Shown here: positions 16,205 through 51,843 of the stretch, one piece after another
Layout of the letters: every line of letters begins with the position of its first letter
Numbering within the stretch: position 1 is the stretch's first letter
Assembly (NCBI GenBank): GCA_947642455.1
Contig: CANRSN010000005.1
Coordinates: 42,722-106,721 of the forward strand
Source: an uncultured Clostridiaceae bacterium
GTDB lineage: Bacteria > Bacillota > Clostridia > TANB77 > CAG-508
Length of the DNA stretch: 64,000 bases
Direction of reading: 5' to 3'
Made by a program: the position numbers and the translations under genes
The notes under the pieces: model-generated
What the model was told of the DNA's origin: nothing
Database searches by the model: none
Seen by the model: only the letters and a program-made list of their open reading frames with translations

Positions 16205-16425
16205 TCTCAAAAAGAGTACAATTTGTTATAATTCATAAATATTAATTATTTATCTAGGCAATATAATATTTATTTTTAGAAGTTTTGCGCAGGGAAGCTC
16301 CCAAAGTGGACATGACCCAGAGCTACCCACGAAGCCAGTAAAAAACTTCAACAAAATAAATATTATATTGCCTATTGGCTTCTAATTTTAAACTATGAAT
16401 TATAACAAATTGTACTCTTTTGCTA
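16205..16425. mobile_element. Palindromic mobile element, copy A (about 220 bp)
   Basis: Long terminal inverted repeats (AAAAGAGTACAATTTGTTAT and its mirror) enclose an arm GGCAATATAATATTTATTTT / AAAATAAATATTATATTGCC, which in turn encloses a GC-rich core starting GCGCAGGGAAGCTCCC. Flanks CTTTTTATT (16196-16204) and CTTTCTATT (16426-16434) are an 8/9 direct match, the likely target duplication. No coding capacity. The right-hand duplication overlaps the fmt stop codon. Its core has diverged (CTACCCACGAAGCC in place of GATTGGCGAAGCC). Confidence 0.85.
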
Positions 16426-16429
16426 CTTT

Positions 16430-17383
16430 CTATTTTCCAATTCCTCTTAAAAAATCGCTAACACTCATTCTTTTAGCATTTTCTGCTTGTATCTCTTTTA
16501 CATCTATAATACCATCAATAGCCTTAAAAAATAAACCTTTTTTGCTATTAGAAAGTAACACTGTTCCTACTTCTTTTTCTTTAACATCATTTATATTAAG
16601 ATTAAATTTATTTACAAAATCTTCTTCTTTTAAAACTTCCACCTTCCAAAGTTTAACCTTTTTATCATTAAAAAAAGTATATGCTCCCATTATTGGGTTT
16701 AGCCCTCTTACTAAATTCTTAATTTGCATAGCTGTTTTTTCTTGCCAATTAATTTTTGCCATTTCCTTATCAAGCATTTTAGCCATTGTAAAATCTTCAC
16801 CTTGTTTTATTCTTGGTGCAGTACCATTTTGAATTTGTTTTATTGTTTCTACCAAAAGTTTACCTCCAACTTTAGAAAGTCTATTCCAAAGTTCTCCTGT
16901 AGTTTCATTTTCTCCAATTTGAACTTTTTGAGATAAAATCATATCTCCAGTGTCCATTCCAATATCCATATACATAGTAGTAACACCAGTTTCTTTATCT
17001 CCATTTATAACTGCCCATTGAATAGGAGCAGCACCCCTATACTTTGGTAATAATGAAGCATGTACATTTATACAACCAAGCTTAGGTATATCTAAAATTT
17101 CTTTTGGAAGTATTTTTCCATATGCTACTACACAAATTAAATCTGGATCTAGTTCTTTTATTTTACTTATAAATTCTTCATTTTTCCTTACCTTTTCTGG
17201 TTGATATATTGGTAATTGTTTTGATATTGCAAATTCTTTTACAGGAGATGGTACCATTTTCATTCCCCTTCCCTTTGGTCTGTCTGGGTTTGTAACAACT
17301 CCTATTATTTCATACTCTTCTTCATAAATTGCTCTTAGTGATTCTTCTGCAAAATCTGGTGTTCCCATAAATAAAATTCTCAT
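16430..17383 (-). CDS. fmt: Methionyl-tRNA formyltransferase
   Basis: 317 residues. N-terminal formyltransferase domain with GRGMKMVPSPVK, VVAYGKILPKEIL, the catalytic block NVHASLLPKYRGAAPIQWA and DIGMDTGDM; C-terminal OB-like tRNA-binding domain with VRGLNPIMGAYTFF. It formylates initiator Met-tRNA. It follows def and priA on the same strand, a common arrangement. The TAG stop is inside the target duplication of element A, so the insertion just spared the reading frame. Confidence 0.97.
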   Translation of the reverse strand: MRILFMGTPDFAEESLRAIYEEEYEIIGVVTNPDRPKGRGMKMVPSPVKEFAISKQLPIYQPEKVRKNEEFISKIKELDPDLICVVAYGKILPKEILDIPKLGCINVHASLLPKYRGAAPIQWAVINGDKETGVTTMYMDIGMDTGDMILSQKVQIGENETTGELWNRLSKVGGKLLVETIKQIQNGTAPRIKQGEDFTMAKMLDKEMAKINWQEKTAMQIKNLVRGLNPIMGAYTFFNDKKVKLWKVEVLKEEDFVNKFNLNINDVKEKEVGTVLLSNSKKGLFFKAIDGIIDVKEIQAENAKRMSVSDFLRGIGK

Positions 17384-17433
17384 TCTCTACTTCCTTTCTA
17401 TAATGTAATTTTCTGTATTAGAAAAGCCTTTTT

Positions 17434-17916
17434 CTAAACATTCTTTTCTGGCTCTACATATTCTAAGGTTCCTGGAATCATATTATCAACAAAAACAATT
17501 CCATTTAAATGATCTATTTCATGACATAACGCCTGAGCTAGTAACTCTTTTCCATGAATTTTTATCTTTTTTCCATTTTCGTCTAAAGCCTCTACTGTAA
17601 CTTCTGCTGGTCTAAGCATTTTTGCATATTTATTAGGGAAACTCAAGCATCCTTCTTCTACTTCTTGCTCTCCCTTTTGTTTAATAATTACTGGATTAAT
17701 AAGTTTTAAAGGACCTTTACCATCATAAATATCTATTACAATAATTCTTTTTAATATACCAACTTGAACAGCAGCTAACCCAACGCCATTATATTTATGC
17801 ATAGTTTCGACCATATCATCTAATAATTCTCTAATTTTATCATCTACAACTTCTACTTCTCTTGATTTTTTTCTTAATATTTCGTCTCCTTCTTCTCTAA
17901 TTATTCTAACTGCCAT
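17434..17916 (-). CDS. def: Peptide deformylase
   Basis: 160 residues. All three deformylase motifs are present: [18 protein letters not shown] and CHEIDHLNG, giving the metal ligands Cys and two His and the catalytic Glu. It removes the formyl group that Fmt adds. Between priA and fmt in one leftward operon; AAGAAAGGAATGTG precedes the ATG. Confidence 0.97.
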
Positions 17917-17949
17917 TTTTTAATCACATTCCTTTCTTAATGCACAAAT

Positions 17950-20202
17950 TTACATCATATTACTAGGATTTATATCAACCACAACCCTTATATCTTGACT
18001 TTTATTTAAAGCATATAATTTTTCTAAACCATCATTTATTAAACAATTTACTTGGTTTCCATATAAACATTTTATAATCATTCTCCAACGATAATTATTC
18101 TTTATTTTATCTATTGGAGCTGGTAATGGTTTATATAGTAGTATTCCTATTTTTTCATTAATTACTCTTTGTTTATAATAACTATGTAATTTTTCTGCTA
18201 TTTTAATAACTTCTTGTTCATTATTCCCGCTAATACCAATTACTATTATATCGCAAAAAGGCGGATATTTCAACTGTTTTCGTAAACCTATTTCTGTATC
18301 ATAAAAAGTTTTATAATCTTGTTTTCTTGAACACTCAATTGCAAAATTATCTGGATTATATGTTTGAACAATAACCTTTCCTTCTAGTTTTTCTCTTCCT
18401 GCCCTTCCTGCAACCTGTGTAAGTATTTGAAAAGTTCTTTCATTAGCCCTATAATCATCTATATTTAATGAACTATCTGCTGCAATTACACCAACTAAAG
18501 TGACATTTGGAAAATGATGTCCTTTTACAACCATTTGAGTTCCAATTAATATATTAATTCCTTCATTTTTAAATTTATTTAGTATTTCTTCATGTGAATT
18601 TTTCTTAGTTACTGTATCTACATCCATCCTTATTGTAGTAGCATTTGGAAATATTTTATTTATTTCTGTCTCCAATTTTTGAGTTCCTGTCCCAAAATAT
18701 CTTATATTTTGACTCTGACATTCTGGGCAAATTGTTACTGGTTTTTCCTCATATCCACAATAATGACACTTCAATTTATTTTGCTTTAAATGATATGTCA
18801 TAGTTATATTACAGTTTTTACATTTTATAGTATGTCCACAATCTCTACACATTATAAAAGTTGAATAGCCTCTTCTATTTAAAAACAATATTGTTTGATG
18901 ACCATTTTTTAAATTGATATCAATTTCTTCATACAGTTTTGTACTTAACATTGACCTATTACCCTTAGCTAATTCTTCTCTTAAATCCACTATTTCAACT
19001 TCTGGCAATTTAGAGTTATTTGCTCTTTTAGTAAGTTCTAATAATTCAATATCTCCTTTTAACGCTTTATAATATGTAGAAATATCAGGAGTTGCACTGC
19101 CTAAAACTAAAGGAATATTTTTATTTTTAGCTATTTTACTTGCCACTATTTTTGCATCATATCTTGGAGTCATTTCAGACTTATATGAACTATCATGTTC
19201 CTCATCTATTATAATTAGACCTAAGTCTTGCACTGGGGCAAATATAGCAGAACGTGCACCTATTACTATTTTTGCTTCACCTGATTTTATCTTATTCCAA
19301 CTATCAAACCTTTCTCCAACAGATAATTTACTATGTAATACTGCTATTTTATTTAGCCCAAACCTACTAACAAACCTATCTACCATTTGAGGTGTAAGTG
19401 ATATTTCTGGAACTAACATTATGCTTGATTTTCCTTCATTTAATACTTTTTGTATTATTTGCAAATATATTTCTGTTTTCCCTGAACCAGTAACTCCAAA
19501 TATTAAAAACTCTGAATTCATTTGATCTTCAATTGCAGTCTCTATTGCATCATATGCTCTTTGTTGCTCTTGTGTAAACTTTAAGTTTGTACTCATTCTT
19601 GGCATTACCTTGTATAAAAACGGATTTCTTTCTATCTGTTTTTCTTTTATTTCTATATATCCATTTTTCTCTAATGTTTTTATTATGGCTTTTGAAACAT
19701 CTGTAAACATTTCTAATTCACTAATATTAGTTTCTCCATTTTCTATTAAAAATTTTAATACTCTAATATGCTTTTCCGACTTTATCTTATTTAGTTCTAT
19801 ATTTTCTTTTATTTCGTCTATATCTGCTTTTAAATTTACAAATTTAGCCTTCTTCTCTTTAATTCTGTTTTCTAGTACTTTTGTCTTTGTTCCTGGTGGT
19901 AACATTAATTTTATACAATCTGATATATTACATATATATCTTTTCGCCATCCACTTAGCTAATTTTATATTTTCTTCTTCTATAAATTCATTTTCTTCTA
20001 TTTTTACTATATCTTTTAATTTATATTCTGACTCTTCTGTAAAACCAACCACAAAACCTTCTTCTAGATTTTTGCTTCTTCCAAATGATACCAAAACCCT
20101 ACTACCTATTTTTATATTTGGTTGCATTTGTACTGGTACATTATATTCAAATACTTTATTTAATTCTTTTGCATTTGTATTTATTATTATTTGTGCTATC
20201 AT
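17950..20202 (-). CDS. priA: Primosomal replication restart helicase PriA
   Basis: 750 residues. N-terminal 3'-DNA-binding domain (VLVSFGRSKNLEEGFVVGF), winged helix, then SF2 helicase with Walker A GVTGSGKTEIYLQ, DEEHDSSYK, the zinc-binding array CRDCGHTIKCKNC...CHYCGYEEKPVTICPEC, and motif VAGRAGREKLEGKVIVQT. It restarts stalled replication forks. Full length, first of the priA-def-fmt unit. Confidence 0.97.
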   Translation of the reverse strand: MIAQIIINTNAKELNKVFEYNVPVQMQPNIKIGSRVLVSFGRSKNLEEGFVVGFTEESEYKLKDIVKIEENEFIEEENIKLAKWMAKRYICNISDCIKLMLPPGTKTKVLENRIKEKKAKFVNLKADIDEIKENIELNKIKSEKHIRVLKFLIENGETNISELEMFTDVSKAIIKTLEKNGYIEIKEKQIERNPFLYKVMPRMSTNLKFTQEQQRAYDAIETAIEDQMNSEFLIFGVTGSGKTEIYLQIIQKVLNEGKSSIMLVPEISLTPQMVDRFVSRFGLNKIAVLHSKLSVGERFDSWNKIKSGEAKIVIGARSAIFAPVQDLGLIIIDEEHDSSYKSEMTPRYDAKIVASKIAKNKNIPLVLGSATPDISTYYKALKGDIELLELTKRANNSKLPEVEIVDLREELAKGNRSMLSTKLYEEIDINLKNGHQTILFLNRRGYSTFIMCRDCGHTIKCKNCNITMTYHLKQNKLKCHYCGYEEKPVTICPECQSQNIRYFGTGTQKLETEINKIFPNATTIRMDVDTVTKKNSHEEILNKFKNEGINILIGTQMVVKGHHFPNVTLVGVIAADSSLNIDDYRANERTFQILTQVAGRAGREKLEGKVIVQTYNPDNFAIECSRKQDYKTFYDTEIGLRKQLKYPPFCDIIVIGISGNNEQEVIKIAEKLHSYYKQRVINEKIGILLYKPLPAPIDKIKNNYRWRMIIKCLYGNQVNCLINDGLEKLYALNKSQDIRVVVDINPSNMM

Positions 20203-20223
20203 TTAGTTCCCTTTCTTAATTTT

Positions 20224-21039
20224 TTACTGTTCTATTTTTACTGCACTTACAACTACCCTTTGCTCTCCATAACAAGTAATTAATGTAATAATATCACCTT
20301 TTAATTCTTCTGAGTTTTTAAATTTTACTCTACTTTTTTTTATAGCTTTATTCAAATATTGTTGTTTTTCGTTATCTGTTGAAAAACTTTTTTTAACAAT
20401 ATCTAAACTAGGTTCTGCCACATATGCTGTAACTATTTGATATAGATATGAATGTTCTTTTGTGTATATTTCTATTTGTATATTATCCCCTAATTCTCCA
20501 CTATAAATCTTATTTAAGTCTGCAAACATTCCACCACTTTTTAGATTATGTCCATATATAACTGTATTGTTCTCTGAAAAATCTGGCTTTGTTTTACAAT
20601 CTAAAAATATAGTTCCACAAGAATTTTTTTGTTTATATATATCTCTTTTTAAATAATATTCATTATCTTTTGCCTGTACTATTGGATAATTTATATTTGT
20701 ATTTTCTATGCATACCCAGCCTATAGTTTCACTATTGACTTGATTTAACTTCTCAAAGTCAATACTCTTTTTAGGTTTCTCGGTTTCTACTTGGTTTCCC
20801 TCACTTTGTTCATTTTCTGTATTTTGTTCAACCTTTACTACTTCTGAGAATATCCCTTCTTCTAGTGCCTTTAAATCACTATTACTCTTAAACCAATATA
20901 TAATATGATAGGCAGAATACACAAAAACAGCTATAAATATTATAAGTAATATTATAGTTATTATTGTTTCTATAGTATTACTTTTTTTAGATTTATTTTT
21001 CTTAGATTTTGAATTCTTTTTAAAATGATTTCCTTTCAC
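20224..21039 (-). CDS. Class B-like sortase
   Basis: 271 residues. A short basic Lys/Ser/Asn tail, one transmembrane helix (about 25-47), then the sortase barrel. The catalytic His is in TVIYGHNLKSGG, the Cys in ITLITCYG (Cys256) and the Arg in QRVVV (Arg261). The long helical insert before the Cys strand (NEKQQYLNKAIKKSRVKF) is typical of class B. The neighbouring gene encodes an LPKTG protein, the obvious candidate substrate, although LPxTG is more often a class A motif. Start appears to be GTG after AAAAGGAGAAAATT. Confidence 0.9.
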   Translation of the reverse strand: MKGNHFKKNSKSKKNKSKKSNTIETIITIILLIIFIAVFVYSAYHIIYWFKSNSDLKALEEGIFSEVVKVEQNTENEQSEGNQVETEKPKKSIDFEKLNQVNSETIGWVCIENTNINYPIVQAKDNEYYLKRDIYKQKNSCGTIFLDCKTKPDFSENNTVIYGHNLKSGGMFADLNKIYSGELGDNIQIEIYTKEHSYLYQIVTAYVAEPSLDIVKKSFSTDNEKQQYLNKAIKKSRVKFKNSEELKGDIITLITCYGEQRVVVSAVKIEQ

Positions 21040-21089
21040 TTCAATTTTCTCCTTTTCAGTAACTTAAATTAAACATAGTTACAAGAACA

Positions 21090-21135
21090 AAAAAATGCAC
21101 ATAAAAACTTAAAGCTTTTCTGTGCATTTTACTTT
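21090..21135 (-). terminator. Terminator between the LPKTG gene and sortase gene
   Basis: AAAATGCACA at 21092-21101 pairs with TGTGCATTTT at 21121-21130, with a T-run on the minus strand. It should end transcription of the LPKTG gene, so the sortase gene needs read-through or its own promoter. Confidence 0.7.
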
Positions 21136-21150
21136 TATTGTATTTTTTAA

Positions 21151-22785
21151 TTATTTTCTTATTTTTCTAACAACTACAAATACTATACCTGCTAAAGATA
21201 CTACCATTAATACTACAAATGCACCAATTGCCATTTCTCCTGTTTTTGGTAATACAGGTTTTTCTTCTTCTACTGCTTTTTCAACTACTTCGATTTCTAC
21301 TTCACTTTCAAATTTGCCATTTACTGTAACTGTAATTTTTGCTTTTCCTACATTTACACCTGTTACTATTCCATCTTCACTAACAGTTACTACTTGTTCA
21401 TTGCTTGATTTAAAAACTGGTTTTATATCTTCTGTTACTCTTTCAGGATTTGTTGCAATACCTAATAAAGTCTTTTCTCCAACTTCTATTTTTGTTGAGT
21501 CTGCAAATAATTCTACTCCTTCAATTAATACTTCTGGTACTGTAACTTTAACAGTTGCTGTTTTATCTCCTCCAACTGTTGCTGTTATTGTAGCTGTTCC
21601 TATTTTTAAAGCTGTTACTATTCCATTTTCTACTTTAACAACACTTTCATCACTTGATTCCCATTTTGCTGTTCTTGAATCTGTTGTGTTTGCTGGATTA
21701 TATATTATTGTTAATTCTCTTGAATCCCCTCTGAATAATTCAAAATCTTTTTCTGCAAATGCTATTGAATCTAATTTAATTTCTTTTACATTTATAGCAC
21801 ATGCTGCTGTATAAGTTCCTACTTTTGCTGTTATTACTGCTGTACCTTCTTTTAAAGCTGTTACATGACCATTTTCAACTTTTGCAACTGTTGCATCTGT
21901 TGATGTCCAAGTTACTGTTCTATCGTCTGTTGTGTTGCTTGGTATGTATTCTACTTTTAAGTCTAATTCTTGATTTTTTAACATGTTTTCACTTGTAGTA
22001 TTTAGTTTTATTCCTGTCAAAGGTGCTTTTACATCTATAGTATATGTTGCTGTTTTATCTCCTGCTTTTGCAGTTATTGTTGCTTTTCCTGGTCCTACAG
22101 CTTTAACTACACCATTTGTTACTGTTGCAACTTTTGCATCACTTGTTGTCCATGTTACTGTTTTGTTTGTTGCTGTATCTGGTTTTACTGTTGCTACTAA
22201 AGTTTCACTTACTCCTACATTTACAGAGTTAGCATTTTTGTTTAATGTTATTGTTTCTACTGGTATTATAACATTTATTTTTCCTGAAGTTGTTGCTACT
22301 GTATCTGCTTTGTCAACTTCATTTCCAACACTCTCAGAATAATATAATTCTGTTAATGTTAAGTTTAAGTCTTGTTGTCCTACTGCACCATTTTTTACTT
22401 TAAATTGTATTTTTCCTATTACTCCTGCTTGTAAAGTTTGGTTAGAATTTCCTGCTGCTGTAAATACTATTGCACCTACATTGTTTGCAGATTGAACGTC
22501 TGTATTATCTAGATTACCTTTTAATTGTTGCATTACTGTTCCTTGCTCAACTTTTACTACTTCTAACTTATCTTTATTAAAGTTTACTTCTGTAGCAAAA
22601 GAAATCATTTCTACTTTTTCTGATAATTTTACTTCTACTGTTACCATTTGACCAACTTTTGCTTCTGCACTTCCTATTGATAGTGTTGGTTTTGTTGCAG
22701 CATTACTCATGCTAATTGGTAACATTGTTAGCATAAGTGTTATTAGTGCTAATACTGCTAATAATTTTCTTGTTTTTGTTTTCAT
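21151..22785 (-). CDS. Sortase-anchored cohesin protein with four Ig-like domains
   Basis: 544 residues. Signal peptide (cleavage after the SNAA segment, about 30). Residues about 31-175 form a cohesin domain: TLSIGSAEAKVGQMVTVEVK, ISFATEVNFNKDKLEVVKVE, GVIGKIQFKVKNGA. Four Big2 Ig-like repeats follow (each with VTWTTSDAKVATV / GTAVITAKVG-type strands) up to about 500. The C-terminus has LPKTG, a hydrophobic helix and a KIRK tail, a full wall-sorting signal. It probably displays the dockerin-bearing enzymes encoded just upstream. A promoter and Shine-Dalgarno AGAAGGAGT precede it. Confidence 0.9.
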   Translation of the reverse strand: MKTKTRKLLAVLALITLMLTMLPISMSNAATKPTLSIGSAEAKVGQMVTVEVKLSEKVEMISFATEVNFNKDKLEVVKVEQGTVMQQLKGNLDNTDVQSANNVGAIVFTAAGNSNQTLQAGVIGKIQFKVKNGAVGQQDLNLTLTELYYSESVGNEVDKADTVATTSGKINVIIPVETITLNKNANSVNVGVSETLVATVKPDTATNKTVTWTTSDAKVATVTNGVVKAVGPGKATITAKAGDKTATYTIDVKAPLTGIKLNTTSENMLKNQELDLKVEYIPSNTTDDRTVTWTSTDATVAKVENGHVTALKEGTAVITAKVGTYTAACAINVKEIKLDSIAFAEKDFELFRGDSRELTIIYNPANTTDSRTAKWESSDESVVKVENGIVTALKIGTATITATVGGDKTATVKVTVPEVLIEGVELFADSTKIEVGEKTLLGIATNPERVTEDIKPVFKSSNEQVVTVSEDGIVTGVNVGKAKITVTVNGKFESEVEIEVVEKAVEEEKPVLPKTGEMAIGAFVVLMVVSLAGIVFVVVRKIRK

Positions 22786-22822
22786 TTTTTTACTCCTTCT
22801 TCCTTTTATTTTTATCGTTTAG

Positions 22823-22851: not shown

Positions 22852-22880
22852 TACTTTTTATAATTTTTTTTACAAAATAA

Positions 22881-22970
22881 GTTACAATTTGTTACAATTT
22901 ACAGTTTGTAAAATTATATTACTTAAATAGAAATTAGTCTGTGAATTGTAACAACAATTCATTACAAGCT
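22881..22970. repeat. Deleted copy of the palindromic repeat
   Basis: GTTACAATTTACAG (22891-22904) and CTGTGAATTGTAAC (22939-22952) are the outer arms of the 220-bp family. TTACTTAAATAG lies between them, but the core is absent. It lies just after the CAP-dockerin gene. Confidence 0.6.
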
Positions 22971-22982
22971 TTTTTGTTCATT

Positions 22983-25781: not shown

Positions 25782-25836
25782 TATGAATATTACATTTAAT
25801 TTTAGATATTTTACAAAACTCCATAACTTAAATTCA

Positions 25837-26060
25837 CAGCAAAAAAAAGTACAATTTGTTACAATTCATAGATATCAATTATCTATCTAGGCAATATAAT
25901 ATTTATTTTTAGAAGTTTTGCGCAGGGAAGCTCCCAGAGTGGACATGACCCAGAGCGATTGGCGAAGCCAGTAAAAAACTTCGACAAAATAAATATTATA
26001 TTGCCTATTGGCTTCTAATTTTAAACTATGAATTGTAACAAATTGTACTCTTTTTTGTTG
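25837..26060. mobile_element. Palindromic mobile element, copy B (224 bp)
   Basis: Termini CAGCAAAAAA...TTTTTTGTTG. Arms GGCAATATAATATTTATTTT and its exact complement enclose GAAGTTTT-core-AAAACTTC. The core contains GCGCAGGGAAGCTCCC, GTGGACATGACCC and the stem-loop TTGGCGAAGCCAG. Flanks TTAAATTCA (25828-25836) and TCAAATTCA (26061-26069) match 8/9, a likely target duplication. No coding capacity. It separates the amidase promoter from the divergent orphan gene at 26208. Confidence 0.88.
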
Positions 26061-26077
26061 TCAAATTCAATTTTATG

Positions 26078-40552: not shown

Positions 40553-40757
40553 GTAACTATCCGTTACAATTCACAGCCAAATTTCTATTTAGACAATATA
40601 ATATTTATTTTAACGAAGTTTTGCGCAGGGAAGCTCCCAGAGTGGACACGACCCAAAGCGATTGGCGAAGCCAGTAAAAAACTTCTTTAAAATAAATATT
40701 ATATTGTCTAAAATATATAATTTTAAAAACTGTGAATTGTAACAATAATTATGTTAC
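40553..40757. mobile_element. Palindromic mobile element, copy C (eroded ends)
   Basis: GTTACAATTCACAG (40563-40576) and CTGTGAATTGTAAC (40730-40743) are the arms. The core is intact apart from three substitutions (GACACGACCCAAAGC). The terminal CAGCAAAAAAGAG tips are lost, so no target duplication can be seen. Confidence 0.75.
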
Positions 40758-40818
40758 AGTTCACAGCCAAATAATCCGTTTAGACTATATAGTGTTTGTT
40801 TTGACGAAGTTTTATTGT
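40753..40818. repeat. Truncated repeat copy abutting a stop codon
   Basis: GTTACAGTTCACAGCC, GTTTAGACTATATAGTG and GACGAAGTTTT match the left half of copy C. It stops where the radical-SAM gene's TAG (40819) begins, as if the copy was cut off by or inserted at the gene end. Confidence 0.55.
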
Positions 40819-42609
40819 CTATTTTTTTGTTAATGCTTTCATTTCTTCAAGATTAACTAGTTCTTCTCTGCACCAATCTTGATACACATCTCCATTTGAT
40901 GTCATTGTAAAGTCAAATGTTTTTTTTACACATTCACCCCAATATTTAGGAAATTGCTCTTTAGTAATATAAATTTTAAAAGAAACAGTATAATTATAAT
41001 CCTTTACAAATCTTTTTAATATATAACCACCTGTAGAACAGATTGTTCTTTTTTGTCTAAAACCTTGAGCTAATAACATTGAAAAAACATCATCTAAAAT
41101 ATTTTGATCTACATATAAGTTCTTGTTATCAATTTCTTTTTTTCCCATTGAAGCATCTTTATGGAGTGTTGAAATAATAATGTTTTTTACTCCATATTCG
41201 AAAGACACTGCTATATATCTAATTATTTTTTGCGAACTATCAAGTCCACCTTTTACACAAACTGGTGTAAATGTTATTATATTTCGCTTAGCAATTTCTT
41301 TAATATCTTCTAAGGATAATATATTACAAGACTTTCTTGGTTCTAGAATATTATAGTTTTCTTCATCTGAGATAGCATGTCTGCTTATATAAAGATTAAG
41401 TCTAAGTTCTCTTGCTCCTATTTTATCAAGGGTTTTCTTTTCCACAGTTCCATTTGTAACAATTACTAATTGAATCTGTTTTTCATAAATTTTTAAAATG
41501 TCATCAACATACAATGTAGGTTCTCCTCCACCAATAAAAATGCTATCTACATATTCTTTCATTATCTCTAAATTTGTTAAAATTCTACTTATATTACGCT
41601 CCTCGCACTTTTCATTGAAAGACTTATTTCTGCAGAATGTACAATTACAATTACAGCTCATTCCAAGTTCTAAATATAGAAATCTTTTAAAACTAATAGT
41701 TCCTAATTGATTCATATGACTGTAAGTGTTCAAATTTTTCCAACTATTTAAGTTTAAATCTGATAATTCAATACATTTAAAACTATTATTACTTTGTTGA
41801 GAAAAAAATGAAATTCTAGAGTTTAATAATTTTTTCAATTTATTGTCTAATTCCATCTTTTCAAAACTACAATTCGAAAAATGTATCATTTCTAATAAAT
41901 TTATTGGAGAATCGTTAAATATGAGATTTTGGTAAACTTTTCCTTCAACTCTTCCTTGAAAGAATTTTAGCTTATCAAGATAATTGAAATTTCTACAAAC
42001 AAGTTTATATAATCTTGTAAGTGTTCCATCATCATATTCTTCAAGAAATTTTTCACACTGTTCAACAAGGTTTATTATCTGATTTTGAGTTAAAAAAATA
42101 CACTTTTTTTCAATATATACTTGTATGAGTATGAATAACTTATATGGTGTAATGTGAATAAAAGGATTTACCTTTAATGTTGAAAAATCGATATTACATG
42201 TATCCCAATATTCTATTGGTTTATCTGCATAACTTTCATCTAAAATAATATCTCCTACAGATTTACCATCACAATAAATATTGCAATATGAAATATTTAT
42301 TGTTGCACCTGTATTTCTAAGAATTGCATCAGAAATAGTAAAACCTACCCACTCTTTTTCTTTAATATAGCTTAAATCAACATTTTCGAAATTGCACTTT
42401 TCGATTGTACGCATTCCAAGTTTTTCTGGATTAAAGCGTATACCTGTATTACTAAGATTTGTATTGTAAAAAATAGCATTCTCCCAAAACTTTGGTTTAA
42501 ACTTACTTAAATCTAAATGTGATAAATCCATATTTGAGAAATTCCTTATTTTCCGTTCTACTATATCCCTCTCCTGTACTAACTCACTTACGTTACTATT
42601 TTTTTTCAT
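40819..42609 (-). CDS. Radical SAM protein with pentapeptide-like N-terminal region
   Basis: 596 residues. The first 130 or so show pentapeptide-like periodicity (MDLSHLDLSKF, FYNTNLSNTGI, KCNFENVDLSY, ISDAILRNTGA). A helical region follows, then a second short patch (CSFEKMELDN, CIELSDLNL). Radical SAM domain from 310: Cys319, Cys323 and Cys326 form CX3CX2C, with IFIGGGEPTLYVDDIL and LVIVTNGTVEKK. The C-terminus (TMTSNGDVYQDWCREELV) recalls the region after radical-SAM cores in peptide-modifying enzymes, but lacks the SPASM cysteine array. No precursor peptide was found nearby. Substrate unknown. Confidence 0.75.
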   Translation of the reverse strand: MKKNSNVSELVQERDIVERKIRNFSNMDLSHLDLSKFKPKFWENAIFYNTNLSNTGIRFNPEKLGMRTIEKCNFENVDLSYIKEKEWVGFTISDAILRNTGATINISYCNIYCDGKSVGDIILDESYADKPIEYWDTCNIDFSTLKVNPFIHITPYKLFILIQVYIEKKCIFLTQNQIINLVEQCEKFLEEYDDGTLTRLYKLVCRNFNYLDKLKFFQGRVEGKVYQNLIFNDSPINLLEMIHFSNCSFEKMELDNKLKKLLNSRISFFSQQSNNSFKCIELSDLNLNSWKNLNTYSHMNQLGTISFKRFLYLELGMSCNCNCTFCRNKSFNEKCEERNISRILTNLEIMKEYVDSIFIGGGEPTLYVDDILKIYEKQIQLVIVTNGTVEKKTLDKIGARELRLNLYISRHAISDEENYNILEPRKSCNILSLEDIKEIAKRNIITFTPVCVKGGLDSSQKIIRYIAVSFEYGVKNIIISTLHKDASMGKKEIDNKNLYVDQNILDDVFSMLLAQGFRQKRTICSTGGYILKRFVKDYNYTVSFKIYITKEQFPKYWGECVKKTFDFTMTSNGDVYQDWCREELVNLEEMKALTKK

Positions 42610-44325: not shown

Positions 44326-44420
44326 ATAATACCTCCGTACATTTATTCTACAAATATCTGTTTGTATTTTTTGTATTATACAGCCGAATTTTTGTTTTGT
44401 CAATACTTTTTATAAAAATT

Positions 44421-44643
44421 CAGCAAAAAAGAGTACTCTTTATTACATTTCACAGATTAAAATCAGAATTATATGAGTACTATAATATTTATTTTTACAA
44501 AGTTTTTTACTGGCTTCGCCAATCGCTCTGGGTCATGTCCACTGTGGGAGCTTCCCTGCGCAAAACTTTGTTAAAATAAATATTATAGTACTTAAGTGAA
44601 TATTCTATCTGTGAAATGTAACAAATTGTACTCTTTTTTGCTA
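44421..44643. mobile_element. Palindromic mobile element, copy D (223 bp, core inverted)
   Basis: Termini CAGCAAAAAAGAGTAC...CTCTTTTTTGCTA, with a perfect 9-bp target duplication ATAAAAATT at 44412-44420 and 44644-44652. Subfamily 2 arm: AGTACTATAATATTTATTTT. The core reads on the minus strand here, opposite to copies A, B, C and E. The target is the T-tract of a terminator-like hairpin (TTCTTTA/TAAAGAA at 44651-44667). Confidence 0.92.
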
Positions 44644-44825
44644 ATAAAAATTCTTTAAAATAAAGAACTATTTTTCCATTTGAATAATTCAATTTGGAAT
44701 CTTCTGTTACTACTGCACAAGGAATTTCCTTTGTGCGGTTCTTTATATAGCTAATCATTATAATCTTTTCATCTGCGGGAACGCAAATTGTTTTTTGATA
44801 AAAACATAATGTAAATTTTTTATAA
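44644..44825. other. Spacer between element D and the ART-like gene
   Basis: In the minus-strand RNA TTCTTTA-TTT-TAAAGAA followed by TTTTTATT (about 44645-44668) is a plausible terminator for the gene at 44826. GCACAAGGAA/TTCCTTTGTGC near 44732-44753 is another hairpin. A frame is open through this region into element D but looks incidental. Confidence 0.4.
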
Positions 44826-45716
44826 CTATGCGAGTTTCTTAAGTTCAAGAAATACTAATTTCTTGAATGCGTCTTTCCACTCTTTGTAACATGCTGGAAC
44901 TTCTGGAAAGTCTTCTTTTGTATTTAATTCAGTATAAAAATCTTTAATTTCGCTTATATACTGAACATTATATACAATCTTTTCAATTTCCTCTGTATTA
45001 CCTTCTATATTGCTAAAATCTGGAGGATACACTTCTACTTCATACATTAAGGCTGGTTCTCCATCTTTGCCTCGATATGTATCATTGTATCCTAAACAAT
45101 GTGCAACTAATCTACCCCCTGTAAGTAAAAGTACTTCTTTTTCTTCAGGTTTTGGATAGTTTTTCCCTAGCTCTTCCATATCAAAAACTGCTGCTTTGTC
45201 ATGAATTTTATAACAGCATATAGCTAAATGGTTTTTGTTGCCATATCCTAGTTGCATAATTTCTTCAGTGGAAAGTTTTGTTGTTGATGTAAGTGCATCT
45301 ATTACGGTTTCCCCTTCTGAAATTTCGCTCTGCCGGCAAGCCCTAACTGTTGCAAGTTCTGTGGTTCTATTTATTCCACTTCCATAGCAGTATAAATATG
45401 TATAAAGATGAACCATTTTTCTTACACCTAATGGAGTAAGTAACCCTGGAACCTGTTTTTTTCCTTCGTCAAAGCGATCTTTTTCTGCTGTTTCGCCTCC
45501 CATAATAGTATTTAATGTTACATATGCCTTTTTGGCTTTTACTACACTTTCCTCAAAGTCCTTTTCTGTAAAGAATTCTCCATCAGGAACTCCTATATAG
45601 TACTGTGCTGCTGAAATAATTTTTCTTGAAACCATTTTTGCAGATGTCCGTAATACATTTTCTCCTGCACTAGTTTGTAAAAACTTTATTAAGTTTTCCT
45701 TTCCTAATTTAGCCAT
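44826..45716 (-). CDS. Putative ADP-ribosyltransferase-fold protein
   Basis: 296 residues, no signal peptide. The middle resembles ADP-ribosyltransferases of the R-S-E group: ALTSTTKLS (141-149) sits where the STS motif would be, and EEKEVLLLTGGRLVA (from 191) looks like the ExE strand with Glu192 and Glu194. A conserved Arg is not obvious (candidates near 117-128). The fold call is inference from short motifs only. It could instead be a host- or phage-related protein of unknown fold. Single gene with AAAGGAGGACAAA; codon use looks like neighbours. Confidence 0.45.
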   Translation of the reverse strand: MAKLGKENLIKFLQTSAGENVLRTSAKMVSRKIISAAQYYIGVPDGEFFTEKDFEESVVKAKKAYVTLNTIMGGETAEKDRFDEGKKQVPGLLTPLGVRKMVHLYTYLYCYGSGINRTTELATVRACRQSEISEGETVIDALTSTTKLSTEEIMQLGYGNKNHLAICCYKIHDKAAVFDMEELGKNYPKPEEKEVLLLTGGRLVAHCLGYNDTYRGKDGEPALMYEVEVYPPDFSNIEGNTEEIEKIVYNVQYISEIKDFYTELNTKEDFPEVPACYKEWKDAFKKLVFLELKKLA

Positions 45717-45880
45717 TTTGTCCTCCTTTAATTAACCATAAGTTCCAATGCTCTTTAGTCAATTGACTATAAATTGTTTTCTCCTTTCTATAGATTTTAA
45801 CAATTTCTGCTACAAATAATTTACTTTATAACACTAGTATTATACCATTTTTGTTAACATAATTCAAGTGCTAAAAATAA

Positions 45881-45923
45881 AAAAATATATGGTTATAAAC
45901 ATTTAAACCATATACTTTTTTTA
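45881..45923 (-). terminator. rplQ terminator
   Basis: TATATGGTT and AACCATATA form the stem directly after the rplQ stop, followed on the minus strand by TTTTTTTATTTTT. It ends the ribosomal-protein operon. Confidence 0.85.
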
Positions 45924-45924
45924 T

Positions 45925-46449
45925 TTATATTAATTCTAATATTACAGTTTCTGCTGCATCTCCTCTACGAGGTCCTTTTTTGATTATACGAGTATAACCA
46001 CCTACTCTACCTTCATATTTTGGAGCTATTTCATTAAATAATTTTGATGTTAAATCTACATTATTTCCTTCTGCATCTTTAACTTTATTTATCATTTTCA
46101 TCATTTTTCTTCTTGCATTTAATCTTGATGGCATATCTTTTTGTCTTTTTTCAGTAGTTGTTTCTTTTACTACTTTTAGATATTCTTTACCATTTTTACT
46201 TTTAGCAATTTCAGTTTCTTTATTTCCTTTGCTGTCTAATTTTGCTTTTACAACTTTAGCTTCAACAGTTTCAAAATTGTCTTTTTCTTTAATAGCTAAT
46301 GCTATTATGCTATCTGCCATAGATTTAACTTCTTTAGCTCTAGCCTCTGTTGTTTCTAATTTTTCATGTAAAATTAAGTCTGTTAATTGAGTTTTTAACA
46401 TTGCTAAACGTATATCTGTTTTTTTGCCTAATTTTCTATTTATTGCCAC
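45925..46449 (-). CDS. rplQ: Ribosomal protein bL17 with internal insertion
   Basis: 174 residues from the GTG that begins [17 protein letters not shown]. The N-terminal two-thirds of the fold and the C-terminal [26 protein letters not shown] are typical of bL17. Between them, about residues 60-105 hold extra charged sequence ([21 protein letters not shown]...) not present in the usual 115-130-residue proteins. Last gene of the operon. AAGGAAGG fits this GTG better than the one nine bases upstream. Confidence 0.93.
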
Positions 46450-46470
46450 TTTTTTCACCTTCCTTTTAGT

Positions 46471-47418
46471 TTAATCTTCTTCTCTTGCGAAATCTAAACC
46501 TAATGAACGTAATTTATATGTTACTTCATCTAAAGATTTCTTTCCTAAATTTCTAACTTTCATAACTTCTGATTCTGTCATGTTTGTTATATCTTCAACA
46601 GTTGATATTCCAGCTCTTTTTAAGCAGTTGAATGATCTTACAGATAATTCTAAATCTTCTATTGACATTTCCAATACTTTTTCTTTTTTATCTTCTTCTT
46701 TTTCTATCATAACTTGAGTATTTTTAGCTGTTTCTGATAGGTCAATAAATAATTCTAAATGACCTGTCATAACTTTAGCAGCCAAACTTAATGCTTCATA
46801 TGGAGCTAAACTTCCATCTGTCCACACTTCTATTGTTAGCTTATCATAATCAACCATTTGTCCTACTCTAGTGTTTTCTACTGCATAGTTAACTTTTTTT
46901 ACTGGTGTATATATTGAGTCTATTGGTAATACTGCTAAAGGTTGATTGTCTTTCTTATTTTTTTCTGCAGAGTTATAACCTCTTCCCATATTAACTGTCA
47001 TTTCCATTTGAAGATGTGCACCCTCTGAAAGAGTTGCAATATGTAAATCTGGATTTAATACTTCTATTGAAGAATCTGTAATTATGTCTCCAGCTTTTAC
47101 TTCTCCTTCTCCTTTGAAGTCTATTCTTATTATTTTTTCTTCATTTTCATGAAGTTTCAATCTTACACATTTTAAATTAACTATTATCTCTGGTACATCT
47201 TCTACTACATTTGGTATTGTAGAAAATTCATGAACTACGCCCTCAATTTTTACGCTTGTTATAGCTGCGCCTGGTAATGAAGATAATAGTATTCTTCTTA
47301 AGGAATTTCCTATTGTTACTCCATACCCACGCTCTAATGGTTCACAAACAAATTTTGCATAATTGTTCTCATTATCTATTTCTAAGCATTTGATATTTGG
47401 CCTTTCAAATTCTATCAT
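46471..47418 (-). CDS. rpoA: RNA polymerase alpha subunit
   Basis: 315 residues. Dimerisation domain with [26 protein letters not shown], and the C-terminal domain [26 protein letters not shown]...[11 protein letters not shown] that contacts UP elements and activators. Complete. TTAGGAGGTAAAA precedes the ATG. Confidence 0.98.
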
Positions 47419-47563
47419 TTTTACCTCCTAATTTTTTTAGAAGTTTTAAGTTTAAGGTTAGTTCTATGCCCAATTATTTTCATATTTTACCCCTATTACT
47501 CTACTTCTTAATACATAATATATATTTTTTACAAGTATATAAATACTGTGTAATATTTTTTCA

Positions 47564-48190
47564 TTATTTAGAGTAAAGCTCTACAATTAAATGTTCTTCT
47601 ACTGGGATATCAACATCTTCTCTAGATGCTAATCTTACTACTTTACCACTTAATTTTTCTGTGTCTTTTTCTAACCATTCTGGAACAGGTCTTCCTGAAT
47701 TTTCTTGTACATTTAATTTTATTGCTCCATTGTCTTTTCTTATTTCTCTAACAGCAATTACATCTCCTGCTTTTATTAGATATGATGGTATATCTACTTT
47801 TTGTCCATTTACTTCAAATGCTCCATGTGTTATAAGCATTCTAGCTTGTGCTCTTGAGCTTCCATAACCTAATCTATATACTACATTATCTAATCTGCTT
47901 TCTAATATTTGAAGTAAAACTTCACCAGTTTTTCCTCTTGATTTAGAAGCCATGTCAAAGTATTTTCTGAATTGTTTTTCACCAACTCCATAAAATGCTT
48001 TTGTTTTTTGTTTTTCTCTTAATTGAGTACCATATTCTGAAAGTTTCTTCTTTTTTTGTCCATTTTGTCCTGGTGCATAATTTCTTCTTGAAATACTACA
48101 TTTATCTGTATAACATCTTGAACCTTTTAAGAATAACTTTTGTCCTTCTCTACGGCAAATACGGCATTGTTCATCTTTATATCTTGCCAT
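47564..48190 (-). CDS. rpsD: Ribosomal protein uS4
   Basis: 208 residues with [18 protein letters not shown] at the N-terminus (the four-cysteine zinc-binding form), [22 protein letters not shown] and the S4 domain [31 protein letters not shown] 145-bp gap separates it from rpoA. It also regulates its own operon in Firmicutes. Confidence 0.98.
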
Positions 48191-48219
48191 TTTTATATTT
48201 CCCTCCTTAATTATTCCTT

Positions 48220-48618
48220 TTATACTCTTCTTCTTTTTGGTGGTCTACAACCATTATGTGGTATTGGTGTAACATCTTTTATGCTACTTATTTCCAAACC
48301 TGCTGATTGTAATGATCTTATAGCAGCTTCTCTTCCTGAACCTGGTCCTTTTACAAAAACTTCTACTGTTTTTAAACCATGTTCCATTGCTGCTTTTGCA
48401 GCTGTTTCTGCAGCTTCTCCTGCTGCAAAAGGTGTGCTTTTTCTTGAACCTTTAAAACCAAGTTCACCAGCACTTGCCCAAGAAATTGCGTTTCCTTGAA
48501 CATCTGTTATTGTAACTATTGTATTATTAAAACTAGAATGAATGTGTGCCATACCTCTTTCAATGTTTTTTCTATCTCTTCTTCTAGGTGTTGTTCTTTT
48601 TGTTACAGCTTTTGCCAT
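48220..48618 (-). CDS. rpsK: Ribosomal protein uS11
   Basis: 132 residues. [26 protein letters not shown] and [19 protein letters not shown] are the family hallmarks. Part of the 30S platform. Confidence 0.98.
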
Positions 48619-48650
48619 TTAAGGTTACCTCCTATTTAATTCATTTATTT

Positions 48651-49016
48651 TTATTTTTTGCTTTTACTTACTAATTTTCTAGGTCCTTTTCTTGTACGAG
48701 CATTAGTTTTTGTTCTTTGCCCTCTTACTGGAAGACCTCTTCTATGTCTTATTCCTCTATAACAACCTATTTCTGTAAGTCTTTTTATATTTAAAGCTAC
48801 TTCTCTACGTAAGTCTCCTTCAACTGTAATTCCTTCCATTGCTTTTCTTATTGCTTGTTCTTGTTCTCCAGTTAAATCTTTTACTCTAGTATCTGGGTTT
48901 ACTCCAGCTTCTTTTAATATTTTTTGAGAAGTTGTTAGTCCTATTCCATATATATATGTAAGGCCTATTTCAACTCTTTTTTCTCTAGGTAAATCTACTC
49001 CTGCTAAACGAGCCAT
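48651..49016 (-). CDS. rpsM: Ribosomal protein uS13
   Basis: 121 residues from [50 protein letters not shown] is the conserved tail. GGAGGTGCTAAAAAAC fixes this start; an upstream in-frame codon would add six residues. Confidence 0.98.
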
Positions 49017-49063
49017 GTTTTTTAGCACCTCCAAATTTTATTTTTATTGTTTGTCTCCTTTCA

Positions 49064-49107
49064 AAAATAAAAGGTGAAATGCATTGGTTTTACCAATCTT
49101 TTATTTT
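49064..49107 (-). terminator. Hairpin upstream of rpsM
   Basis: AAAATAAAAG (49064-49073) pairs with CTTTTATTTT (49098-49107), with an inner ATTGG/CCAAT stem. On the minus strand a T-run follows, so it may attenuate transcription between rpmJ and rpsM. Confidence 0.5.
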
Positions 49108-49273
49108 CTCATAGACATGTATATAAACACAAATCTGATTTATAAGTTTTATTAATATATACATTTATAATATTGTTCATATTTAGTAGAATAATAATAC
49201 TTTAATGTATATACTATAAAATTAAACTTACAGCCGCTTCAAGACTTGTGCTAATATCTAAATTAATTTTTAA

Positions 49274-49387
49274 TTACCCTTGTCTTTGTTTGTGTTTAGG
49301 GTTTTCACATATAACTCTGATGACACCTTTTCTCTTAATGATTTTGCATTTTTCACATATTTTTTTTACTGATGGTCTTACTTTCAT
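49274..49387 (-). CDS. rpmJ: Ribosomal protein bL36
   Basis: 37 residues, [20 protein letters not shown] then [17 protein letters not shown]. The zinc ligands CxxC, C and H mark the C+ form. CAGGAGGTGTAATATTA precedes the ATG. Normal infA-rpmJ-rpsM order. Confidence 0.97.
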
Positions 49388-49436
49388 TAATATTACACCT
49401 CCTGTAATTAATAATACCTATACTTTATATATTAAA

Positions 49437-49511
49437 ATATGATGTGTGATGTCAGATGTATTATAATTACAGGCTACATGAAATTAATACACCTCACGTC
49501 GCACCTCATAT
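49437..49511. repeat. Long imperfect inverted repeat between infA and rpmJ
   Basis: Arms of 26 bp (49437-49462 and 49486-49511) match at about 21 positions, with scattered mismatches. No T-run. It could be a decayed terminator or mRNA stem, unrelated in sequence to the 220-bp family. Confidence 0.45.
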
Positions 49512-49543
49512 TTTATATTCTATTTACTATTTTATTAACTATT

Positions 49544-49762
49544 TTATTTTGCTCTCCAAGTAATTCTACCTCTTGTTAAGTCATATGGTGAAAGTTCTAC
49601 TTTTACTTTATCTCCTGGTAATATTTTTATGTAATTCATTCTTAATTTACCTGAAATATGAGCTAATATTTGATGTCCATTTTCAAGTTCTACTTTGAAA
49701 TTAGTATTTGGTAATGTTTCTACAACAGTACCTTCTACTTCTATAACATCCTCTTTTGCCAT
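49544..49762 (-). CDS. infA: Translation initiation factor IF-1
   Basis: 72 residues from [22 protein letters not shown]-fold, ending [10 protein letters not shown]. Standard length. GGAGGGAAAA precedes this ATG, which is preferred to the in-frame ATG upstream. Confidence 0.97.
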
Positions 49763-49907
49763 TTTTCCCTCCATTTTCTTAGCTGTTTTATAACAAATAA
49801 TTATTGTATAATTTAGCTTTATTTGAAAATATTTTTGACTTCCTTATATTGTATTTATATACAATTTTTGTAATTTACATATAATGCTTATATAGTATAT
49901 AATAAAT

Positions 49908-50678
49908 TTACAAAATTGTCAATATTTCTGGCTCATTTTCTGTAATTAATATTGTATTTTCATAATGTGCAGCATTGCTTCCATCTTCTGTAATTATAGT
50001 CCATCCATCATCTAATTGTAAAATTCCATCACTTCCATATATAACCATTGGCTCTATTGCTAGAGTCATGCCTGCTTCTAGTCTTATTCCTTTTCCTGCT
50101 TTTCCGTAGTTTGGAATTCCTGGATCTTCATGCATTTGTCTTCCTATTCCATGCCCTTGAAATTCTTTTACAACGCTAAATCCATTTTTCTTAATAAAAT
50201 CTCCAATGCTATGTGATATATCTCCTAGTCGATTTCCTTTTTTAGCATATTTTATTCCTTCAAAAAATGCTTGTTTTGTTATTTCCATTAATTTTTGGTT
50301 TTCTTCACTTATTTTTCCTACTGCATAAGTTCTTGCACAATCTCCATTAAAGCCATCTTTGTATGCTACTAAATCTATACTTATGATATCTCCTTCTTTT
50401 AATATTACTTTTTTTGATGGTATTCCATGTATTACTTCATCATTTACTGAAGCACATATTGAGCCAGGAAAATCTATTACTCCTTTTACTCCACTTGGAT
50501 ATCCTTTTTCTGCTGGAATTGCTCCATTTTTTCTCATTGTATTTTCTGCTATTTTGTCTAATTCCCAAGTTGATATTCCTGGTCTTATTGCTTCTTCTAT
50601 TGCTTTTTGTGTTAAACTTGCTATTCTACATGCTTCTCTCATCTTTTCTATTTCATGTTTCGATTTTATTGTTACCAT
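49908..50678 (-). CDS. map: Methionine aminopeptidase type I
   Basis: 256 residues. Metal ligands in SIDLVAYKDGFNGDCART, GHGIGRQMHEDPGIPNYG and AIEPMVIYGSDG. Removes N-terminal Met after deformylation by Def. Between adk and infA, the usual Firmicutes order. Confidence 0.97.
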   Translation of the reverse strand: MVTIKSKHEIEKMREACRIASLTQKAIEEAIRPGISTWELDKIAENTMRKNGAIPAEKGYPSGVKGVIDFPGSICASVNDEVIHGIPSKKVILKEGDIISIDLVAYKDGFNGDCARTYAVGKISEENQKLMEITKQAFFEGIKYAKKGNRLGDISHSIGDFIKKNGFSVVKEFQGHGIGRQMHEDPGIPNYGKAGKGIRLEAGMTLAIEPMVIYGSDGILQLDDGWTIITEDGSNAAHYENTILITENEPEILTIL

Positions 50679-50708
50679 TTTAATATCATCCTTTCCTAAT
50701 GTACAAAT

Positions 50709-51374
50709 TTATTTTTTCTCTATATATTTTTTTATGTCTTTTGCTGCATCTTCTGATGTTTTTCCTGAATGTAAATTTAATCTTACAGTATATAATAACT
50801 GTTGTGATTTATAATAGTCTGTTAATTTTGCTGATGTTGCATAATAGTTTTCTAGCCTCTTTTCTACAGTTTCTACATTGTCATCATCTCTTTTTTCTAG
50901 TTTACTACCACATTTATCACAAATTCCCTGCTTTCTTGGTGGCTTAAATTCTAAATTATATATTTCCCTACATTCCTTGTTTGTACATACTTCTCTTTTT
51001 ATAATTCTATCTATTATTTCTTTATCTGACAAATTTAATTCTATTGCTATATCTACTTTTTGATTTTGTTTTTTTAAAAATCTATCTAATTCTATAGCCT
51101 GATTTCTTGTTCTTGGAAATCCATCTAGTATTACACCATTTATGCAGTCTTTTTCTAGTAATCTTTTTTCTACTAATTTTATTGCTAATTCATCTGGTAC
51201 TAAATTTCCTACTGATATATATTCATCTATTTTTTTTCCTATTTCTCCTGCCTTTTTTACATAACTTCTAAATAGTTCTCCACTTGATACATGTGGTATT
51301 TGTAGTTGATTTGATAATAAACTTCCTACTGTTCCTTTTCCTGATCCAGGCTTTCCTAACATTACTATATTCAT
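50709..51374 (-). CDS. adk: Adenylate kinase
   Basis: 221 residues. P-loop GKPGSGKGTVGSLL, DGFPRTRNQAIELD and a LID domain with four zinc cysteines (CTNKEC...CDKC). Catalyses ATP + AMP to 2 ADP. Normally follows secY; here secY is absent and a deleted repeat copy lies directly upstream. Confidence 0.97.
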   Translation of the reverse strand: MNIVMLGKPGSGKGTVGSLLSNQLQIPHVSSGELFRSYVKKAGEIGKKIDEYISVGNLVPDELAIKLVEKRLLEKDCINGVILDGFPRTRNQAIELDRFLKKQNQKVDIAIELNLSDKEIIDRIIKREVCTNKECREIYNLEFKPPRKQGICDKCGSKLEKRDDDNVETVEKRLENYYATSAKLTDYYKSQQLLYTVRLNLHSGKTSEDAAKDIKKYIEKK

Positions 51375-51396
51375 TTAGATTCCTCCTAATATTTTT

Positions 51397-51476
51397 GCTA
51401 CAATTCATAGCCCAATTTCTATTTAGGTAATATAATATTACCTATGGCTTTTAATTTCAAACTGCGAATTGTAACA
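51397..51476. repeat. Deleted copy of the palindromic repeat upstream of adk
   Basis: TACAATTCATAGCCC, ATTTAGGTAATATAATATTACC, then GCGAATTGTAAC: both arms of the family joined without the core (about 80 bp). It lies in the adk leader. The remaining stretch to 51620 is AT-rich, with a possible 15-residue minus-strand frame (MVWENLITEINELEE) that looks like gene debris. Confidence 0.6.
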
Positions 51477-51620
51477 TATTTTTGTTTACTTAACTTATTG
51501 TATTATTTCCTGTAATTATTCTTCTAATTCATTTATTTCTGTAATCAAATTTTCCCACACCATTTGACGTTATCAGTATATCATATTTATTTATTTTTTA
51601 CCATAACCAATTATAAAAAT

Positions 51621-51843
51621 CAGCAAAAAAGAGTACAATTTGTTACATTTCACAGATATAACATTCACTTAAGTACTATAATATTTATTATAACAAAGTT
51701 TTGCGCAGGGAAGCTCCCAGAGTGGACATGACCCAGAGCGATTGGCGAAGCCAGTAAAAAACTTTGTTAAAATAAATATTATAGTACTTATATAATTCTG
51801 ATTTTAAGATGTGAAATGTAACAAATTGTACTCTTTTTTGCTG
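51621..51843. mobile_element. Palindromic mobile element, copy E (223 bp, best preserved)
   Basis: Termini CAGCAAAAAAGAGTAC and its mirror, 33 bp of inverted repeat, perfect target duplication TATAAAAAT at 51612-51620 and 51844-51852. Arm AAGTACTATAATATTTATT pairs exactly with its complement; inner CAAAG/CTTTG. Core GCGCAGGGAAGCTCCC ... TTGGCGAAGCCAG unchanged. It was inserted into the T-tract of the terminator at 51847. Confidence 0.93.

Follow-up and report, generated by a model that had tools for sequence, protein, structure and literature searches.

The ends of bacterial miniature inverted-repeat transposable elements (MITEs) usually serve to define them, the interior being regarded as filler. 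Here, we describe a family of palindromic repeats, represented by five long copies in a 64,000-nucleotide stretch (the window) of contig CANRSN010000005.1 from an uncultured Clostridiaceae bacterium, in which this picture is reversed: over nine genomes and two lengths of target duplication, the interior is constant and the ends can be exchanged. The elements are short and lack a transposase gene, share terminal inverted repeats, and are flanked by target duplications of fixed length, which are the features of MITEs. We lean, with some reservation, towards reading them as MITE-like non-autonomous DNA transposons of uncultured Clostridia, whose inner module is kept because its folded single strand helps the carrier persist or spread.

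The Correia/NEMIS, RUP, and ERIC MITEs (PMC2229807) are likewise short, AT-rich, and non-coding, with inverted-repeat ends, target duplications, and transcripts that would form long stem-loops. The present elements differ in being longer, near-perfect palindromes (about 220 bp in the arm families S1 and S2 introduced below), in their 8- or 9-bp duplications, and in carrying one GC-rich structured core under different ends. The Caulobacter CIR repeats described in the same paper are also intergenic, expose a conserved motif in a loop, and keep their structure between species; as described there, they consist of two arms, a linker, and a methylation site, whereas the elements studied here are single palindromes with a core of about 55 nucleotides (nt) and footprints of transposition. 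REP and REPIN sequences, with their RAYT-type Y1 transposases and REP-targeting insertion sequences, resemble them as high-copy intergenic palindromes in which one element may be inserted inside the palindrome of another (PMC1525189), and PMC3733652 gives REP units a length of 20 to 40 bp, against about 180 to 225 bp here. Matches to a Y1 transposase are missing from two of four carrier genomes. To our knowledge, REP units also have no target duplications, which the elements of the window's own genome do have. Another parallel is template switching between inverted repeats, which homogenises arms and inverts spacers (PMC8604942 and PMC8794818): hairpin maintenance of this kind (PMC8794818) accounts for arms that change together, and spacer inversion is named in PMC8604942. 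It is a mutation mechanism and not a family of elements, and it leaves the likeness of cores between genomes unexplained.

One inner module under several kinds of end

The genome to which the window belongs (G000; 2.2 Mb in 85 contigs, the window being one stretch of it) contains 98 copies of the core at up to three mismatches, 51 of them exact, and 117 matches to a looser pattern, with 0 matches to the reversed control in both cases. Merging copies identical over 120 bases left 96 distinct cores, and 92 of these were aligned over the inner module (alignment A1), the other four being dropped with an arm that was truncated or unplaceable. From the outside inwards, an element consists of the target duplication, a terminal inverted repeat, an imperfect spacer, an AT-rich inner stem of about 23 bp, and the core; a length of about 180 to 225 bp leaves no room for a transposase gene. 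Beyond the inner stem, where the original prediction had recognised two arm subfamilies, we found at least five, S1 to S5, with 24, 18, 19, 18, and 15 members and two unassigned copies (n = 96); assignment relied on fuzzy patterns and probably misplaced a few copies (e.g., L089 and L093 in S3). S1 and S2 end in CAGCAAAAAAGAGTAC, S3 in GTTACAATTCACAG, S5 in GTAACTATTCAGAG, and S4 in TTTAAGTTTCRGTATTTTTTGAAATA, and the terminal inverted repeats have at least 130 matches in the genome at up to three mismatches, with 0 in the control. By eye, the single copies L032, L061, L063, L068, and L071 have outer inverted repeats of their own. The outer palindromes of these five differ, yet several have TTTTGTTCG-like stretches near their ends (also by eye), and they may represent another palindromic repeat family hosting the module.

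Target duplications were counted in copies with both ends at fixed places, with mismatched flank pairs as the control and in subsets that differ from the family assignment. Among copies with CAGCAAAAAAGAGTAC ends (S1/S2), 14 of 31 have a perfect 9-bp duplication (control, 0.22% of 930 pairs) and none is perfect at 10 bp, while perfect 8-bp duplications flank 6 of the 24 copies with GTTACAATTCACAG-type ends (S3/S5; control, 0.54% of 552 pairs), none being perfect at 9 bp. The signal in S4 is weaker, at least seven of eight positions matching in 5/12 copies (control, 0.8%). The 8-bp end type also occurs in another carrier genome, G338, where L130 has ATCTTACT on both sides. Fixed-length target duplications are a mark of DDE-type transposition, and the two lengths suggest at least two transposition systems, which seem to carry one module of about 100 bp. 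The target duplications, the copy number, and the shared core all agree with the earlier proposal of a mobile, non-autonomous palindromic family with a common structured core.

By eye, no transposase was noticed between paired ends in the stretches read around ends, from which five open reading frames (ORFs) were run through Pfam. These were a serine recombinase and a sigma factor, both from L239, and elsewhere ScpA, a DUF4143 protein, and a germination protein. In L239 (1105-3445; G000:C17), a single S2-type end is followed by the sigma-factor ORF and then by the serine recombinase ORF. A different arrangement is found in L238 (about 419-931; G000:C20:11918-12430), where two S1/S2-type ends, facing inwards at a distance of 512 bp, enclose a small ORF that by eye resembles an alpha/beta-type spore protein. 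No 9-bp duplication was seen by eye at this end pair, which is perhaps a composite or a chance pair. A Y1 transposase as the common mover was rejected for two of the four carriers: PF01797 was matched in the other two but was absent from G340, which has 16 copies, and from G222, which has 6, in assemblies that are 94% and 92% complete. A phage or plasmid origin was also discarded (0 matches in viral contigs, phages, and plasmids), and the S1/S2 ends are at chance level in 55 relatives, with five matches at three mismatches against five for the reversed control.

Arm pairing and core conservation

The original prediction had taken the covarying arms as a sign of selection on a folded molecule. 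A covariation count over the genome-wide collection, a check suggested with that prediction, confirms that the arms change jointly, with 20 pairs altered on both sides against 6.1 in shuffles (92 copies, 87 distinct) and a share of paired cells of 94.2%, compared with 91.3% for shuffled and no more than 49.8% for slid structures. It does not stand as proof of such selection: unique arm mismatches read on the core strand show no excess of G·U over A·C (14 versus 17 in the inner part and 101 versus 115 in the outer part), and 8 of the 79 copies of S1 to S4 have a core that is inverted with respect to the asymmetric spacers, four further copies being unassigned. The missing G·T excess, together with inversion of the interior, points to DNA template switching and not to RNA selection, and we regard such switching as mainly responsible for the complementarity of the arms. 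This calls for caution in RNA discovery, since covarying arms of long palindromes can stem from template switching, and the comparison of G·T with A·C mismatches offers a cheap check on such arms.

Copy E of the window folds far more stably than chance would give, at -97.2 kcal/mol (z, -15.3), with nearly all of this coming from the palindrome; the 79-nt core stem-loop alone gives a z of -2.6 or -2.5, depending on the strand. Our model of the core comprises a stem (P1), a GGG/CCC helix (P2), a short helix of uncertain register (P3), and an apical hairpin (P4). Double changes were found in one P2 pair, one P3 pair, and three P4 pairs, each in one sequence among the 92 copies. At the top of P1, 8 GU stand against 4 AC (p = 0.39; own copies, counted by pair, type, and arm family). 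Wobble counting gave no support for an RNA strand in either the arms or the core.

When 385 genomes of the order were searched by covariance, with 10 candidates scored per genome so that absences are weak, four matched, namely, our own and three that belong to the same family but to other genera (G340, with 16 copies; G222, with 6; and G338, with 4). An exact degenerate pattern run against the GTDB species collection gave 20 stretches in eight assemblies, including these three; our genome is not listed in that result. The 55 relatives sampled within the genus, family, and order of our genome yielded no match, and neither did 390 of 391 genomes drawn over the class, our own being the exception. 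Nine genomes and 127 copies (96 own and 31 others; L192 was not placed) could be compared. Over the 36 genome pairs, mean identity is 0.82 in a 37-nt stretch of the core (0.70 to 0.92), an upper estimate since the set was partly fetched by a pattern that fixes many core positions, against 0.58 in 35 nt of the left arm (0.51 to 0.81, the top value in one pair) and 0.44 in shuffled arms. The nine genome consensus sequences agree at 23 of 37 core positions.

The helices are rebuilt between genomes. In P1, TTTT/AAAA is swapped for TTCC/GGAA or for GCGAC/GGAGC, a tandem-GA form. The P4 hairpin varies widely in length, from TTGGC-GAA-GCCAG up to far longer stems with loops GCAA, GTAA, GAGA, GTA, or TTT, and mostly remains paired; in our own genome, L056 and L068 have hairpin replacements of the same kind. 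On the core strand, several P4 loops have G as their first and A as their last base, a hint that it is this strand that folds. Loops of this type are stable in RNA and in DNA alike.

Within our genome, core and arms do not travel as one. The apical allele TACC, which differs from GATTGGC by five substitutions, probably arose once or very rarely, and it is present at comparable frequencies in all five arm families (5/24, 4/18, 6/19, 2/18, and 5/15 in S1 to S5; chi-square p = 0.49, with one other allele left out). Further core polymorphisms are also common to several arm families, and this spread of alleles indicates that cores and arms recombine. The exchange unit is probably the inner module, and exchange alone can explain part of the uniformity of cores within the genome.

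Divergence was measured as departure from the family consensus, comparing the core with 22-nt bins of the middle arms and excluding the outermost bins of S3 and S5, which run into flanking DNA. Cores depart less than middle arms in S2 (5.0% versus 8.9 to 13.6%), S3 (8.5% versus 11.0 to 14.1%), S4 (3.9% versus 9.3 to 19.8%), and S5 (8.2% versus 21.5 to 26.1%). Young copies drift evenly, and over longer times the whole module is kept while the outer parts are not. Such rates are in line with source elements being selected or exchanged, and not with a function for the host at individual loci; any constraint there may be acts during the spread of elements.

Competing explanations for the conserved module

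In the reading that we lean towards, each element is a long palindrome whose terminal inverted repeats a transposase presumably recognises in trans; elements with CAGCAAAAAAGAGTAC ends leave 9-bp duplications, and those with GTTACAATTCACAG ends or the variant GTAACTATTCAGAG leave 8-bp duplications. The maintained unit would be the inner module (AT-rich stem and core), which may pass between palindromes by recombination or nesting and so ride on more than one transposition system. The arms would stay complementary mainly as template switching corrects the inverted repeats, and the core, folded as a single strand in a transcript or as hairpin DNA at a replication fork, would aid the persistence or spread of its carrier, resident copies then being left to drift. 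Our data do not discriminate between an RNA and a DNA form.

Several observations weigh against this reading. The core is not invariant, as had been supposed from the five copies of the window: copy A has TACCCAC in place of the GATTGGC of the other four, and the TACC allele breaks P4 in 22 of 94 classified copies. Leaving aside its constant U·G pair, P4 has 14 A·C against 2 G·U (p = 0.004), mostly through this allele, and single-side changes in P2 and P3 show no clear wobble preference (12 G·U versus 8 A·C; p = 0.50). Only 3/37 core positions are invariant over all 127 copies, compared with 14/37 over the 31 copies from other genomes, and the identity between genomes is, as said, an upper estimate. 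The original prediction had named neutral drift of the core as evidence against it, and this is what S1, the youngest family (24 copies), exhibits, with 6.3% in the core against 5.9 to 6.1% in the middle arms; the other four families depart from that pattern in having cores more conserved than the middle arms, though not than the inner stem. Inner-stem departure is 3.6 to 4.1, 1.9 to 3.5, 3.9 to 7.5, 2.7 to 3.5, and 3.5 to 9.0% in S1 to S5, that is, at least about as low as that of the core in all five, so that the core is not singled out within the genome. Module exchange would homogenise modules without any function. Core-less forms persist, five among the long palindromes and more in a further scan. 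Last, no autonomous element with the family's ends was noticed near core-less ends, among the matches listed, in the stretches read by eye (18 plus 11 around ends, from the 85-contig assembly), so the full-length, transposase-encoding relative anticipated by the original prediction did not appear there.

The main rival takes the family as ordinary MITEs with inherited filler, the core being an ancestral spacer with no function that gene conversion keeps alike among about 100 copies and that genomes share by descent or transfer. We consider this possible, if rather doubtful. It would readily accommodate the core allele spread over all arm families, the S1 cores drifting at the rate of the arms, the inner stem as conserved as the core, the existence of core-less forms, and the restriction of matches to one bacterial family in the genomes sampled. 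It fits less well with the arms having turned over more than the core between genomes, or with hairpins that were rebuilt with their pairing, including the longer replacements and the tandem-GA forms. Core-bearing palindromes also outnumber core-less ones, 93 of 100 long palindromes having the core and two of the other seven belonging to other repeats, in stretches biased by being chosen around copies and ends.

It seems unlikely, although parts of the evidence suit it, that the core unit is a site-seeking module that inserts into the loops or centres of existing palindromes (other MITEs or terminator hairpins) and is for this reason surrounded by varied, unrelated inverted repeats. The unit in G340 is sharply bounded (TAGCCG...GGCGGAAA) in places that are unrelated to each other, and the same ends were seen by eye in L121, L149, and L150. 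Of the 16 copies in G340, 5 lie within flanking inverted repeats above 99% of the control and 6/16 above 95%, and L147 and L154 are by eye inside terminator-like hairpins. Nevertheless, 10/16 copies there have no flanking inverted repeat above 95% of the control, inspection by eye of the G340 copies other than L173 (see below) revealed no target duplication, and the Y1 matches are absent from half of the carriers, as described above. One of those 10 copies, L173 (G340:C2:34804), is flanked by a 16-of-17 direct repeat, TGTGTCATTTTTCTACT / TGTGCCATTTTTCTACT, which is not inverted and has a direct score above 99% of the control. The core-less palindromes of G000 are explained equally by slippage between direct repeats; a core-less S4 form present at three places (C2, C30, and C37) fits insertion into palindromes and slippage loss of the core alike.

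Database searches agreed with the earlier view that the core lies outside the known RNA families. At gathering score, Rfam 15 had 0 matches in the window, and only a tRNA was found at eight loci of other genomes; a known RNA in copy E was rejected, as the five microRNA-hairpin matches and one long non-coding RNA match obtained at E values up to 5 were all under gathering scores. No description of the family was found by title and abstract in the open-access literature, a search whose scope excludes most subscription journals. The genes around the copies are ordinary housekeeping genes (e.g., fmt, priA, rpoA, and hrcA). The stretches read contain 105 core places. Of these, 3 are inside mechanically called ORFs, 2 are without context, and the remainder lie between ORFs: the core is antisense to both flanking ORFs in 41 cases and sense in 24, and the flanking ORFs are divergent in 22 and convergent in 13. 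A host-serving regulatory RNA that happens to be mobile (riboswitch, ribozyme, or part of a terminator) is improbable. In its favour are the weak antisense excess and the combination of variable, paired arms with a core that is conserved and unpaired, as is typical of aptamers and ribozymes; against it are resident copies that drift, no common gene context noticed around the copies looked at, no Rfam match, and no wobble signal.

Returning to the folded module that we favour, a bolder version can be put forward tentatively: a new selfish nucleic acid module, in which a folded hairpin head of about 100 bases with its conserved core is carried by several unrelated palindromic transposons among uncultured Clostridia, swaps arms and ends, and acts as folded RNA or single-stranded DNA for its own maintenance. 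If the core is functional, it would be an uncharacterised folded module that spreads selfishly. Overall, the original interpretation is only partly supported.

Copies and neighbouring repeats in the window

All five long copies (A to E) were located where they had first been placed, and the 16-base core start GCGCAGGGAAGCTCCC has five mismatch-free occurrences in the window against a chance expectation of 0.01, even with three mismatches allowed. Copy limits were read from the sequence at the pattern matches. Two of the copies belong to S1. Copy E (51621..51843, plus strand) has both ends intact and a perfect 9-bp duplication, TATAAAAAT, at 51612-51620 and 51844-51852, and its core (51703..51757, plus strand) contains P2 (GGG/CCC), P3, and the apical hairpin TTGGC-GAA-GCCAG. 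Copy D (44421..44643) has its core on the minus strand (44507..44561), is flanked by a perfect 9-bp duplication, ATAAAAATT, at 44412-44420 and 44644-44652, and is overlapped by only a mechanical 113-amino-acid ORF.

The S2 copies are both on the plus strand. Copy B (25837..26060; core, 25920..25974) lies between the flanks TTAAATTCA (25828-25836) and TCAAATTCA (26061-26069). Copy A (16206..16425; core, 16287..16341), with the TACCCAC allele that breaks the apical hairpin, is flanked by the imperfect repeat CTTTTTATTT / CTTTCTATTT, and its end adjoins the 3' end of fmt (ORF 16430-17383, minus strand). The termini described as shared by the long copies are indeed degraded in copy A; those of copy C, thought to be lost, are instead GTTACAATTCACAGC, the end of another arm family. 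Copy C belongs to S3 (40563..40743, plus strand; core, 40623..40677, plus strand), and inspection of its flanks by eye revealed no target duplication.

Shorter relatives accompany the long copies, all on the plus strand. A truncated half copy (40753..40819) consists of the left arm only and stops where the core would start. Two relatives are core-less, one of 62 bp (22891..22952) with ends GTTACAATT.. as in the long copies and another at 51397..51475, which is probably a slippage deletion.

Two other repeats were observed. A separate palindromic family of the form GGGAC...GTCCC occurs in the same genome (G000:C1:32106-32325; L108 and L111), sometimes beside broken copies of the core element. 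Within the window, at 57890-63895, an array of 22 copies of a 249-bp repeat lies inside and past a giant surface protein (ORF 56734-62091) that contains MBG and Ig-like domains.

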